Source of the DNA: an uncultured bacterium
GTDB lineage: Bacteria > Patescibacteriota > Gracilibacteria > Absconditabacterales > Absconditicoccaceae
Reading direction: 5' to 3'
Assembly: GCA_937872535.1 (NCBI GenBank)
Contig: CALMTC010000012.1
Span: 1-60,449 of the forward strand
Length of the DNA stretch: 60,449 bases
Position 1 is the first letter of the stretch. The number at the start of each line of letters is the position of its first letter. A model generated the notes under the pieces. It made no database searches. It saw only the letters and a list, made by a program, of their open reading frames with translations, and was not told the origin of the DNA. Shown here in pieces: positions 47,773 to 55,052 of this stretch. The position numbers and the translations under genes are program-made.

Positions 47773-50217
47773 ATGTTTACTTTTGGCATTCTTTGACTTA
47801 ACGCAAGAAACCTCAATTATATAAAAAAATTTAACCCAAAAAAAACAATTCGTTTGGCTGATAATAAAGCTAGAACGAAAGATTTTTTGTCTGCTAGAGA
47901 TATTCCTGTTCCAAAAACTTTTGGCAGAATAATGAATCATCATGACTTGATGAACTATGATTTTTCGGAACTTGAACAAGAAGAATTTGTCATTAAACCA
48001 AATAAAGGCAGCAAAGGAAGATGAATTTCTATTGTCAGTTTTCGTAAAAATTCTCATGATACTATAAGCCCAAAAAGTTTCTGATTTTTTGATAAACTGC
48101 TCTACTGATCGTACTCATTTTTTGATCATACTTATACGATTTGAGGAGTTGACTATGACGATCTTAGTTTCAAAAAAAAACTCATTGCTATCCTTGATGG
48201 AGCTTATTCTTTGGGAGTCTGATCCGATACGATTTTAATTGAAGAGAAACTTATTCCATGAGAATGATTTGAAAAGTTTTGTAGTTATGGTTTGGCTGAT
48301 ATGAGAATTATTGTTTTTAATCTCGTTCCTATCGCTGCCATGGTAAGAGTTCCTACCATACATTCTGGTGGAAAAGCTAATCTTGCTCAGTGAGGAATTG
48401 GTTTAGGAATAGAGATTTGATCTGGAAAAATTACTTCTATGCAGCTGGATTGAGTTTTATACGATGAAAATTTCCCTGAAGAACATAAGCACTATCGTAA
48501 TAAAAAAATTCCTTTTTGGGATGAAATTCTTTTACATTCATCCAGAATACAATTTTTTACTAATATGGGTTATCTAGCTTTAGACTGGGTTATTACAGAG
48601 AAATGACCAAAACTTTTGGAAGTGAATGCGAGAGCATGATTGGAAATTCAAAAAATTTCTCTGACTCCACTCGAAAATGTCTTGGCTAAAATTAGTGATT
48701 TATCAATTCAGACGCCAGAAAAGTGAGTGAGTATTTGAAAAAGTCTCTTTCACTGATCTCATCAAAATATTTCTGAACAAGCTAAAACTATTTTTCTTTC
48801 TCAAAAAGGGACACTCGTTTCTCAGAAAGATGGGATAAAAAAAGAACAACCTGTTATTATTCGTCTTAATCTCACGAAAAGAAAAAATTATGTCTCTAGT
48901 AAAGTGATGCAGTGAAAAGTGCCTGAAAATTTTTCTTATACTTTAGTTTTACCTGATAGTGAGGCAAAGATTAAAGACCTTCAGCTTGCTGTTGACCCTT
49001 CTTTAAAGAAAAATACTATTATTTTAGGCCAAAGATCTCTTAGTTCTTTTGTCATTAAACCAGAACATAAATTTTATTATGCATCTGAGTTTTTGACTGA
49101 AGATGCTATTATCTCTGATGAATTGAGTGATTTACAGTCATTGGATCAGATTTTAGGATCGTATAATAAATATATCAATCTCGGTAGAATCTTGAGACCA
49201 CTCAACCTTCTCGATGAGTTTGATACTTTTATCACTAAGCACTGAAACTATAATCCTCAGTTTTCTTATAAGTTTCCAGAAATTGACTTTTTAGATAAAT
49301 TAACTTTTCAGCATGAGGACTTATTCAAGAAATTTTTTGAAATTAAGAAACTAAAAAGCCGTTTTGCTACTCTTTTCCGTGAAAAAATTCTTTACAATAT
49401 CGAAAAAATAAAACTTATTAGGGCTTATGTACTTCAAGATTTTGATGCCATTGCTCACTATAATACTTTTTTCTTTCATCCGTTTAATGAGCAGGTTTTA
49501 CATTTATGCCGTGAAAAATGTGATACTTTGCCTTTACTTGAGCGCAAAAAACTCGGTAAACAGCTTCACCTTGAAGATATCAAGAAGATTATTTCAACTC
49601 ATCTTACTAAAAACCATCTCACTGGTGTGAAAATTAAAGTGGTTTCATCTAGGTCCAGTAGAATATCAGTTTGATTTTGAAGACAAGCTACGATAAAGCT
49701 TCTTGCTCATTTAAGACTGAGAGAAAAAGAACTTAATGCACTTATTGCTCATGAAATAGACTGTCATCTCATGAGATACCAAAAAGGACAAAGACTTGGC
49801 CGAAATATTCTAAAAACTGGGACAGCACACTATATTTTTGATGAAGAGGGATTGGCTATCTTTCAAGCGAATAAAATCTATCAAACTGCAATTCCTGGCT
49901 ATGAAAATTCCAATATATATAAACATCATATTCAGCTATTTTCAGCTCAACAGACCAATTTTTCTGGTATGGTTGAGAATCTTCTTGACAACCAAACTCA
50001 TACAACCTCTCTTAAACTAAAAAACACCTTTAAATCTATTTTTAGACTAAAAAGGTGAATCATTGATACTTGAGTTATTCATTCTGGTTCTGTTTTTATG
50101 AAAGACAAAGTATACCTTGATGGTTATCTTAAAATAAAAAAATGGGTAGACCAAGGTGGTGATATAGATGATCTCATGCTCTGAAAAATAAAAATTGAAG
50201 ATTTTCCTTACCTCTAA
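47773..50217 (+). CDS. ATP-grasp ligase fused to DUF1704 metallopeptidase
   Basis: This 814-residue protein has two enzyme parts. Residues ~1-330 match the ATP-grasp family TIGR02291 (alpha-L-glutamate ligase-like): GILGLNARNLNYIKKFNP at the start, FVIKPNKGSKGRGISI near 72, VRVPTIHSGGKANLAQGGIGLG, and LLEVNARAG near 281. Residues ~540-814 match DUF1704/MATCAP-like metallopeptidase: HEIDCH near 658-663 and EEGLAIF near 690, the QEGLA motif. A middle ~200-residue region is unassigned. In other bacteria these two families are encoded by neighbouring genes. TGA encodes many Gly. It is likely to ligate and then trim an amino-acid or peptide group on an unknown substrate. Confidence 0.88.
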
Positions 50218-52036: not shown

Positions 52037-54055
52037 TTACTTTTTAAATGAAGTTTTCTTCTTTATAGATTTATTTTTCTTTTGGGCTATTTTTACTGAT
52101 TTTTTTTCTTTTGTTACATGAATAGCATCCGCTTCAATAATCACTATTTTTTTCTCATCTTGAACATTTTTTAACATTTTTATAGCTTCAGATGGTGTTT
52201 TCATCAGATTCTCAAATTCTGATTTTGTAAGATATTCTTTTTCAATCAGTATAGAAGCCATGGTTTCAACCAGAGATTTATTTTTTTGAAGAATAGATTT
52301 TGATTTTTTATAGGCATCAGCTAGGAGCTCTTTTACTTTTGTATCTATTTTTTCTGCTGTCTTTTCACTGAAAGGTTTATTGAAAGAATCTTGCCCTTCA
52401 GTGTATGAAGCTAATCAAAGTTCATCGTCCATACCGTATTTGGTGATCATATCGGTAGCGATCTTGGTAGCTCTTTCAAAGTCATTGGAAGCTCAGGTCG
52501 TGATATGTTCCTTACCAAAGAAAACTTCTTCCGCAGCTCTTCAGCCCAATAGAGTCACTAGCTCATCGAGAAATTTTGCTTTTGAAATCAAAAACTTATC
52601 TTCTTGAGGTAACATCCAAGTCACTCCTAACGCCATTCATCTCGAAACGATCGAAATTTTCTCTACTGGATCCGCGTGTTCAAGATTGAATGCAGTGACT
52701 GCATGACCAAGTTCGTGATAGGTAACTATTTTTTTCTCGATATCTTGCAGAGATTTAATTTTTTTCTCTGGTCACATAACAATTTTTTCTAAAGCATACT
52801 CAAAATCGTGGCCTTCTATAATTTGTCTATGATCTTTCGCAATTCTGAGTGATGCTTCATTGACCAAAGTTTCAATATCTGCACCTACAAATCCTGAAGT
52901 CCTTCTGGCCAATGAGTTAAGATCTACTGTATCTGATACTTTTTTATCTTTGAGGTAGTAGTCTATAATTTCTATTCTCTCATGAAGAGTCGGTCTGTTG
53001 ACCATTACTTTCCTGTCAAATCTTCCTGTTCTCAAAAGTGCTGGATCGAGAGTATCAGGACGATTTGTAGCTGCTATGACAATAATTTTGGTATCTGTAT
53101 CAAAGCCATCCATCTCAGTCAAGATCTGATTGAGTGTTTGTTCTTGTTCTTGGTGTCACCCAGTATATCAGCTTCCTCTTTTTTTACCGATAGCATCGAT
53201 CTCATCAATAAAAATAATTGAGGGAGAGGCTTGTTTTGCTTTTGTGAAAAGTTCTCTTACCTTGGCAGCTCACATACCGACAAGCATTTCCATAAATTCT
53301 GATCACGATGCTGAAAAAAATGGGACATTTGCTTCTCCTGCTACTGCTCTCGCCAAGAGAGTTTTACCAGAACCTGGTTGACCAAATAATAATACTCACT
53401 TTGGTGGTCTTGCTCAGACTTTTTGATATTTTTGAGGATTTTTGAGATAATCTACAATTTCTGAAAGTTCTTGTTTTACTTCTTCCATACCAGCGATATC
53501 TGAGAACCTTGTTTTCATTTCTGATTTGGTCTTTAGCTTTCCAGCAGATATTGAAAACGGCATTCCTCCATTTTTTGGTCCAAAATATCTCATCACCAAA
53601 AAGAGTAGTAAGACAAAAAAGAGCAGAGGTAAAATTTGTTCTGTAAAAAATGACCCAATAAATGATGATTCATTAAATAGTATTTCAATGGTAGTCGAAC
53701 CTGTTAGTGAAATTCCAAGTTCTGCTAAAGAACTATCGGCAGGTTTATTAGCTGTAGTGATACGATATTTCTGTTCAATAAGTGGTTTTTTGAGGAACTG
53801 AGAGTACTGACTTACAGACTGAGAAATTTGTTGGTATCACTCAAAGTGAGTATTGTCTATCAGTTTGATTTTTTGAAAAGCTCCCTTTTGATAAAGATCT
53901 AGAAAATCATTGAGAGTGGTTTCTTTCGTTTCTTCTATTTTGGTAACGATATTTTTACCGTCTGGCGTCACTTGGAGCTCCATAGTATTGAGCTGCGTCA
54001 GACCAGCTATCACGATAACCATAAATCACAAAAAGAATAGCAATCATTTTCTCAT
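52037..54055 (-). CDS. ftsH: ATP-dependent zinc metalloprotease FtsH
   Basis: This 672-residue membrane AAA+ protease has two N-terminal membrane helices (about residues 3-21 and 147-165), an AAA module with Walker A GQPGSGKT near residue 229 (TGA for Gly), Walker [13 protein letters not shown], the second-region-of-homology [20 protein letters not shown], the zinc site HELGHAV near 447 and a C-terminal basic tail. Length and order are typical. TGA at Gly of ARPPKGVLLFG and others. It is preceded by the LRR gene, separated by a terminator. Confidence 0.96.
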
Positions 54056-54187
54056 TTGTATTTTTCTTTTTTAGTGTAATGTAAAAACTTCAACTTTTTC
54101 TATTGTTTATGTATAGTCAACAGCAAGTTGATTGCAAAAGAAATTCTCAAAAACTTTTATTCTGACTACTGCTAAAAAAATTCCTTA

Positions 54188-54224
54188 TTATAAAAACCCT
54201 AGCCACATAATGGCTAGAGATTCT
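54188..54224 (-). terminator. Terminator of the 54228 LRR gene
   Basis: CTAGCCA and TGGCTAG pair around a 5-base loop; on the minus strand GGG and five T's follow. It begins about 10 bases after the TGA that seems to end the gene. Confidence 0.8.
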
Positions 54225-54227
54225 TGG

Positions 54228-55052
54228 TCACTTGCAAATCTCACAATTAGGAGACAAGCTTTTTAAGGCTCCGTAATTAGTAATTTTTTTATTCCATCTC
54301 AGATCTAGTTCTCGTAGATTGCTTAAACCAGATAATGAACTGATATCACTAATCTGATTAACACTAAGATATAACACTTGCAAACTACTTAAACCAGACA
54401 ATGAACTAATGTCATTAATCTCATTTCTACTAAGACTGACTGTTTTTAGATTAATTAAGTTAGCTAATAAGCTAATGTCACTAATCTGATTGGTATGAAG
54501 ATAGAGTTCTTTTAGATTAGTTAAGTTAGCCAATGTACTAATATTAACAATCTTATTACTACTAACACTTACTACTTTTAGATTAGTCAAGTTAGCTAAT
54601 GAACTAATGTCATTAATCTGATTCTTATCAAGACAGAGTTCTTTTAGATTAGTTAAGTTAGCTAATGAGCTAATGTCACTAATCTGATTGCCCTCAAGAT
54701 AGAGTTCTTTTAGATTAGTCAAGTTAGCTAATGCACTAATGTCACTAATCTGATTGCAACTAAGATTGAGTTCTTTTAGAGTGATTAATTCAGATAATAC
54801 GCTAATGTCAGAAATCTGATTATATCCAAGATCTAGCTCTTGTAGAGCACTTAATCCAAACAATGCTGTAATGTCAGAAATCTTACTACCACCAGCAAGG
54901 TCTAGAGATTTCAGATTCACAAGGTTTTTTACGAAGTTTGGTATCTCTTCTAGTACTAAATTAGTCAGATACAAACTGGTAATTTTAGAATGAATAGCTG
55001 TATTATTTGCTAGTTCTTCTAATTTTTTTGTGTTTTTGATGGCAATTTTCAT
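54228..55052 (-). CDS. Leucine-rich-repeat protein, SDS22/internalin-like, ending at UGA
   Basis: This 274-residue protein has a short helical cap and about ten 22-residue leucine-rich repeats (NQISDISSLANLTNLKEL is the unit). The type matches SDS22/internalin repeats; no signal peptide is visible, so the location is unknown. Its few Gly codons are GGN. The frame ends with K then TGA (54230-54228), and an intrinsic terminator follows at once. If TGA were Gly, the frame would run through the hairpin and more than 80 codons into ftsH in a wrong frame before TAA. A standard-code stop is therefore more natural, which suggests recent gain from an organism with normal code. The promoter is near consensus. 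Confidence 0.8.
   Translation of the reverse strand: MKIAIKNTKKLEELANNTAIHSKITSLYLTNLVLEEIPNFVKNLVNLKSLDLAGGSKISDITALFGLSALQELDLGYNQISDISVLSELITLKELNLSCNQISDISALANLTNLKELYLEGNQISDISSLANLTNLKELCLDKNQINDISSLANLTNLKVVSVSSNKIVNISTLANLTNLKELYLHTNQISDISLLANLINLKTVSLSRNEINDISSLSGLSSLQVLYLSVNQISDISSLSGLSNLRELDLRWNKKITNYGALKSLSPNCEICK

Follow-up and report, generated by a model that had tools for sequence, protein, structure and literature searches.

The window, i.e., the whole analyzed stretch of 60,449 nucleotides, harbors at 47773–50217 on the plus strand a gene encoding an 814-residue protein of three domains: an RloC-type ATP-grasp ligase (PF14397/TIGR02291-like; residues 1–307, 47773–48693), a domain with the fold of the RloA/RimB-type retropepsins, assigned by fold and profile evidence, whose catalytic triad is lost (residues 310–447, 48700–49113), and a MATCAP/DUF1704 zinc carboxypeptidase, assigned by Pfam and structural matches (residues 471–814, 49183–50214), all on the same strand. 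Read with NCBI code 25 (TGA = Gly), the gene is a single open reading frame of 814 codons spanning exactly these coordinates and including 23 in-frame TGA codons; the standard-code reading, which splits the frame into pieces, was rejected. Code 25 is supported by the conserved glycines of normal-code relatives, which occupy many of the TGA positions (G8, G84, G207, G278, G289, G318, G762 and G804) at a frequency of 93–100%, the mean Gly content being 7%. The kinship of the source genome, placed in the same family as SR1 bacterium RAAC1_SR1_1, presumably points to the same code. An assembly artefact is excluded by the presence of the same fusion in dozens of species. The earlier, sequence-only reading of this DNA had proposed an ATP-grasp ligase and a DUF1704 peptidase in one protein, and this proposal is borne out by the single frame, by the recurrence of the fusion in relatives and by the Pfam matches and AlphaFold2 folds described below. 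The RuvA, MoxR and flippase-like genes named there as its setting are not conserved around the fusion among relatives; they are probably irrelevant and were rejected as functional neighbors. Elsewhere in the window, a gene for a 365-residue leucine-rich-repeat protein (53955–55052, minus strand) adjoins an FtsH-like gene.

The rlo operon of Pseudomonas aeruginosa encodes the secreted retropepsin RloA, the seven-transmembrane-helix (7TM) protein RloB with an inactive transglutaminase domain, and the ATP-grasp enzyme RloC (PMC12239564). The ligase domain of the window's protein shows 34% identity in its alignment with Legionella RloC and matches Pfam ATPgrasp_ST (PF14397) at residues 12–299 (E = 1.4e-43, 149.5 bits against a cut-off of 31.4). 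Its match to NCBIfam TIGR02291 (179 bits, E = 9e-53) stays under the cut-off of 314 bits, and the relatives from the window's class score up to 276 bits; judged by these scores, the domain is homologous to TIGR02291 but lies outside the curated equivalog. The nucleotide-binding loop KPNKGSKGRG (residues 75–84, 47995–48024, plus strand) and the Mg/ATP site EVNARAG (residues 283–289, 48619–48639, plus strand) contribute K75, G79, G82, G84, E283 and N285 to the set of residues which, along with E157, D176, R178, R192 and D271, do not vary in the alignment of 76 fused relatives. In the AlphaFold2 model of the whole fusion (25-sequence alignment, mean pLDDT 83.9), the ligase end superimposes on RimK with Z 14.7 and rmsd 3.6 over 209 residues; ArgX/LysX are structural matches equal to RimK, and cyanophycin synthetase is also found among the matches.

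At the opposite end of the chain, Pfam MATCAP (PF08014) is matched at residues 485–697 (E = 8.5e-18, 64.9 bits against a cut-off of 27), and the score with NCBIfam TIGR02421 (57.9 bits) is below the equivalog cut-off of 338.65. This end of the model superimposes on human MATCAP (7z5g) with Z 22.8 and rmsd 2.9 over 268 residues, so structure prediction places both end folds expected from the earlier reading. The zinc-binding and catalytic HExxxH motif reads HEIDCH (residues 660–665, 49750–49767, plus strand), and the motif of the third zinc ligand (EEG/QEG; for its role, see PMC10499314) reads EEGLA (residues 691–695, 49843–49857, plus strand). HExxxH and E692 are retained in 75 of the 76 fused relatives, the one exception probably being due to a broken frame on its contig (L050). 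The catalytic motifs quoted by the sequence-only reading are located at these positions, and the residues of both active sites are kept in 75–76 of the 76 relatives. Hence, on the alignment evidence, both end enzymes are under purifying selection, while the middle domain has decayed: an intact ATP-grasp ligase, as judged from sequence, shares its chain with a degenerate retropepsin domain and an intact MATCAP domain. Characterized MATCAP/TMCP enzymes remove C-terminal Tyr and shorten C-terminal Glu chains (PMC10499314).

Between the two enzymes, the earlier reading had left a region of about 200 residues as a possible third domain; this region does fold, and it proved to be a catalytically degenerate retropepsin of the RloA/RimB type. 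Residues 310–447 were folded separately on a 72-sequence alignment (pLDDT 78), and their top structural match was RloA of Pseudomonas fluorescens (Foldseek rank 1; also in VIA-align, with Z 9.6 and rmsd 2.7 over 90 residues), followed by a Legionella DUF785 protein, RloA2, Ddi1 and retroviral proteases. Taken alone, such Z values would be moderate, but the sequence evidence agrees with them. The window's middle domain has no direct Pfam hit, PF05618 included, and a PDB sequence search with the middle domains of the fused proteins gave nothing useful. At the same time, a ligase–middle domain protein without MATCAP is present in other CPR classes; all 36 middle domains of these "split" relatives match PF05618; they also match RloA structures with E = 2.7e-11 and 7.7e-11, and are related to the fused middle domains with a profile–profile E of 6.9e-31. 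The fold, combined with the profile match to PF05618-positive relatives, therefore identifies the middle domain as an RloA/RimB-type retropepsin. In the alignment, N366-L367-T368 (48868–48876, plus strand) stands at the site of the catalytic Asp-Thr-Gly, and the second conserved retropepsin motif (ILG) is found as ILGQRSL (49021–49041, plus strand). By these sequence criteria, the domain is a pseudo-enzyme relative of the RloA/RimB retropepsins and not an aspartic peptidase. A free-standing PF05618 gene was found in none of the 59 related genomes.

Among the loci of other CPR classes, an intact DTG or DSG with Ala or Ser as the next residue is seen in each of the 38 retropepsins that have no linked MATCAP. 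Ten loci with a MATCAP gene adjacent on the same strand are divided evenly, five keeping the retropepsin triad and five having Asn for the catalytic Asp. Where MATCAP is fused, the triad is lost in 76 of 80 copies; the remaining four read DTG (three) or DSG (one) without the following Ala, and none of the 80 keeps DTGA. It is very improbable that the middle domain is still active as a retropepsin by way of an unusual active site, instead of being a spent enzyme: the catalytic Asp is still present in 48 of 76 fused copies, and the four copies with DTG or DSG speak for such an enzyme, but the window has Asn, almost no copy has preserved the triad's Gly, and DTG-A is retained by no fused copy.

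The ligase tree requires two independent fusions, one in the window's class and one in the L193/L194 lineage, and shows the triad lost at three separate places, with a coupled MATCAP each time. The independent-pairs test of triad loss against MATCAP coupling returned two pairs for, none against and five tied, i.e., too few events for significance; a raw Fisher test relating the loss of the triad to fusion (p = 4e-30) was set aside as evidence, since its rows are related by descent, and the MATCAP tree, which is poorly resolved and has long branches, was left out of the recruitment counts. On these sequence comparisons, the metallocarboxypeptidase likely took over trimming from the retropepsin in the course of CPR evolution. 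Against this stand the five lineages where an intact retropepsin coexists with an adjacent MATCAP as well as the four fused copies still reading DTG or DSG. The take-over may have proceeded from a MATCAP encoded by a neighbor gene through the decay of the retropepsin triad to gene fusion, this last step having occurred at least twice.

The search for the fusion and its neighbors in other CPR genomes, suggested by the earlier reading, revealed RloB as the recurrent upstream gene. Of the 80 named loci of the window's class, 46 have a gene for a seven-helix protein of PF14402 (the RloB family) directly upstream, as do almost all of the 60 loci from other CPR classes; the profile of CPR RloB matches that of Legionella RloB with E = 3.2e-23. 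The window itself has no RloB, and in its genome the gene lies on another contig (G000:C5:2859-4349, minus strand), where its product matches the CPR RloB profile with E = 2.3e-81 and PF14402 with 29.7 bits against 25. The mention of a transglutaminase-like membrane partner in the sequence-only reading was near the mark, but RloB, which takes this place, is encoded elsewhere in the genome and not in the window, and genes of the RloA, RloB and RloC types do not share one operon in this genome. Directly after RloB, the same genome encodes a tandem pair of proteins (384 and 377 aa) that look secreted and have no Pfam match (L125:521-2830).

For co-occurrence, a 7TM-only profile was used, since the full RloB profile gave false matches via PKD domains. 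In 59 related genomes, the full fusion and RloB are found together in 42 and are both absent in 17, three of the latter having a lone MATCAP. Across the phylum (381 genomes), the ligase–retropepsin protein and RloB share an identical set of 113 genomes. Matches to the fusion profile occur in six further genomes without RloB; two of them were shown to be MATCAP-only, and the other four are taken as such on sequence grounds because each has a MATCAP match. Four genera include species with and without the fusion–RloB pair, so the two genes seem to have been lost together repeatedly. The co-occurrence represents more than linkage, since in the single-contig assembly G005 the fusion and RloB are about 750 kb apart.

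Certain loci depart from this arrangement. An enlarged Rlo-type island (L126:4994-10487, genome G014) contains the fusion and, after it, a RimK-like ATP-grasp, a GNAT acetyltransferase, a stand-alone second MATCAP and RloB. A second ATP-grasp gene also follows the ligase–retropepsin gene in L144, L167, L173 and L177 from other CPR. Ligase–retropepsin proteins of 921 and 854 aa are encoded at L149:4408-7173 and L159:3218-5782; the chain in L149 ends in a second ATP-grasp domain (PF02655) and hence represents a different triple fusion.

The C-terminus of RloB differs between the two kinds of genomes. Of the 88 distinct sequences from genomes with fused MATCAP, 80 end in -EE or -EEE, as do those of all five loci combining the Asp-to-Asn retropepsin with an adjacent MATCAP, and none of the 47 RloB of split genomes without a nearby MATCAP does so; the background rate of EE within the last five residues is 2%. 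The tail sits behind a basic RFR-type stretch past the last helix. Given a periplasmic N-domain and seven helices, and in line with what is known of the family and with the positive-inside rule, the tail is presumably cytoplasmic; a hydropathy count of the RloB helices came out too high and was set aside. The distribution of EE tails suggests, at the level of sequence, that the RloB tail is acceptor and substrate. Tree-aware tests, of triad loss as well as of EE gain, returned 2–3 independent cases for and none against, the events being few and the tests underpowered. Counting against this reading, the RloB encoded in the window's genome has the C-terminus ...FKKLSK, and EE is also missing from RloB in five more members of the family (G001, G006, G008, G010 and G011), most of whose RloB relatives end in Glu. 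The EE-less tails (L125:2859-4349, L197, L200, L131 and L201) are mostly Lys-rich, i.e., KKLSK, KGKK, FKK, NKK and SSK.

These Lys-ending tails, the ArgX/LysX structural matches and the removal of tyrosine as well as glutamate by human MATCAP (PMC10499314) would fit a ligase that, in the manner of ArgX/LysX or tubulin tyrosine ligase, attaches a residue different from glutamate (such as Lys, Tyr or Arg), which MATCAP then removes. This is considered unlikely: EE tails dominate elsewhere, and no ligase columns convincingly separate Lys-tail from Glu-tail genomes.

RimK glutamylates RpsF and also synthesizes poly-Glu, and RimB trims poly-Glu and activates RimK (PMC11957791). The close structural match to RimK and the trimming of glutamylated RpsF by RimB would also agree with ribosomal protein bS6 (RpsF) as the target, but the bS6 tails in these genomes do not end in Glu (...FQPKKI in the window's genome), and the co-occurring RloB would have no role; bS6 was rejected as the substrate on the grounds of its tails, and there is very little chance of its being the target. 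In four members of the family (L241, L242, L246 and L247), the bS6 frame is 188 aa long with a bS18-like end, suggesting a fused bS6–bS18 gene read with code 25.

The favored and fairly probable interpretation is that of a glutamylation/deglutamylation machine, a condensed version of the Rlo type, where the metallocarboxypeptidase has replaced the retropepsin and the RloB tail or a molecule presented by RloB is the likely substrate. The earlier proposal of an amino-acid tag that is attached and trimmed back is counted as right. By analogy with RimK, the ATP-grasp domain would add amino acids, most likely glutamate, singly to a C-terminal carboxylate, and the MATCAP domain would remove the added residues as TMCP enzymes do. 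The dead retropepsin could be kept as a scaffold or as an activator of the ligase, in the way RimB acts on RimK. The most likely substrate would be RloB itself, at its cytoplasmic tail, or a molecule that it presents at the membrane, and the length of the (poly)glutamate tail might set the activity of RloB in envelope and osmotic homeostasis. A DUF1704 gene in Photobacterium is induced 27.5-fold at low salt (PMC10308900), a weak hint in the same direction. Put forward more tentatively is a narrower version, namely a one-chain writer and eraser of a C-terminal glutamate tail on RloB, i.e., a bacterial counterpart of the tubulin-tail code with the retropepsin left as a pseudo-enzyme activator.

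A role of the enzyme in the synthesis and degradation of a free compound, be it a metabolite or a storage polymer (for instance, poly-alpha-glutamate or a short peptide osmolyte), with RloB as sensor or exporter, is doubtful. Free poly-Glu is made by RimK with RimB (PMC11957791), the fusion has cyanophycin synthetase among its structural matches, and rlo mutants show osmotic phenotypes (PMC12239564); still, a free polymer gives no reason to expect EE at the RloB C-terminus where MATCAP is linked, and with a strict carboxypeptidase attached to the ligase, the polymer would be a futile cycle unless regulated.

The CPR genomes offer a natural experiment on Rlo, since ligase and trimmer sit on one chain whose membrane partner is obligate; they also provide a likely example of a protein in which a peptidase of one class has given way to a peptidase of another. 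The RloB tail turning acidic where a metallocarboxypeptidase is coupled provides a concrete guess of the substrate, i.e., the RloB C-terminus, and a bacterial function becomes probable for the MATCAP/DUF1704 family, whose characterized members act on tubulin. Among the papers searched, none joins these domains or describes the system in CPR; the 2009 amidoligase survey (Iyer and colleagues) may have noted some of the neighborhoods, so priority for individual gene associations is uncertain.

Among known systems, the bacterial QEGLA proteins (TIGR02421; Shinella, Vibrio) belong to the same peptidase family, but they are linked to N-formylglutamate amidohydrolase and not to RloC/RloB as in CPR; the DUF1704 gene of Shinella adjoins a glutathione-synthetase-like ATP-grasp. 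A stand-alone MATCAP adjoining an N-formylglutamate amidohydrolase-like gene, as in Shinella, is also seen at L135:3211-5128 (G045). A Legionella plasmid carries the RloA, RloB and RloC genes together without DUF1704, and none of the 128 matching plasmid records covers both halves of the fusion at one place; hence, the adjacency of ATP-grasp and DUF1704 genes in proteobacteria, assumed by the sequence-only reading, finds no support in the examples read (Legionella, Shinella). With the tubulin carboxypeptidases KIAA0895L and KIAA0895 (PMC10499314), the window's MATCAP shares the fold (Z 22.8) and the HExxxH and EEG motifs, but it is bacterial, fused to a ligase and has no tubulin substrate. Tubulin tyrosine ligases/polyglutamylases (TTL) with MATCAP likewise pair an ATP-grasp writer with a MATCAP eraser of C-terminal residues, though as separate eukaryotic proteins and with another ATP-grasp branch, so the likeness is analogy only.

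RimK/RimB and the RimBK hybrid of Desulfotalea psychrophila, where an active RimB peptidase is N-terminal to RimK (PMC11957791), also combine an ATP-grasp ligase with a retropepsin, theirs trimming polyglutamate. In the window's protein, the order is reversed (ligase–retropepsin), the retropepsin has lost its triad, a zinc carboxypeptidase comes next, and the ligase is nearer to RloC. In P. aeruginosa, hypo-osmotic tolerance, biofilm, morphology and antibiotic resistance are under the control of the Rlo operon; a loss of the RloA peptidases is rescued when rloB or rloC is lost, and RloA cleaves the poly-Glu substrates of RimB (PMC12239564). All three components, i.e., an RloC-type ATP-grasp, an RloA-type retropepsin fold and a 7TM RloB, are present and co-occur in CPR. 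Unlike in Pseudomonas, RloC and RloA are on one chain to which MATCAP has been added, the window's RloA-type domain is degenerate and cannot be periplasmic, and the CPR RloB examples scanned have no recognizable transglutaminase domain. Since RloA is periplasmic in Pseudomonas and the fused retropepsin must be cytoplasmic, the layouts cannot be identical. Overall, the fusion is a variant of the Rlo/Rim kind, in which a single chain holds the RloC and RloA parts of a condensed Rlo-type system.
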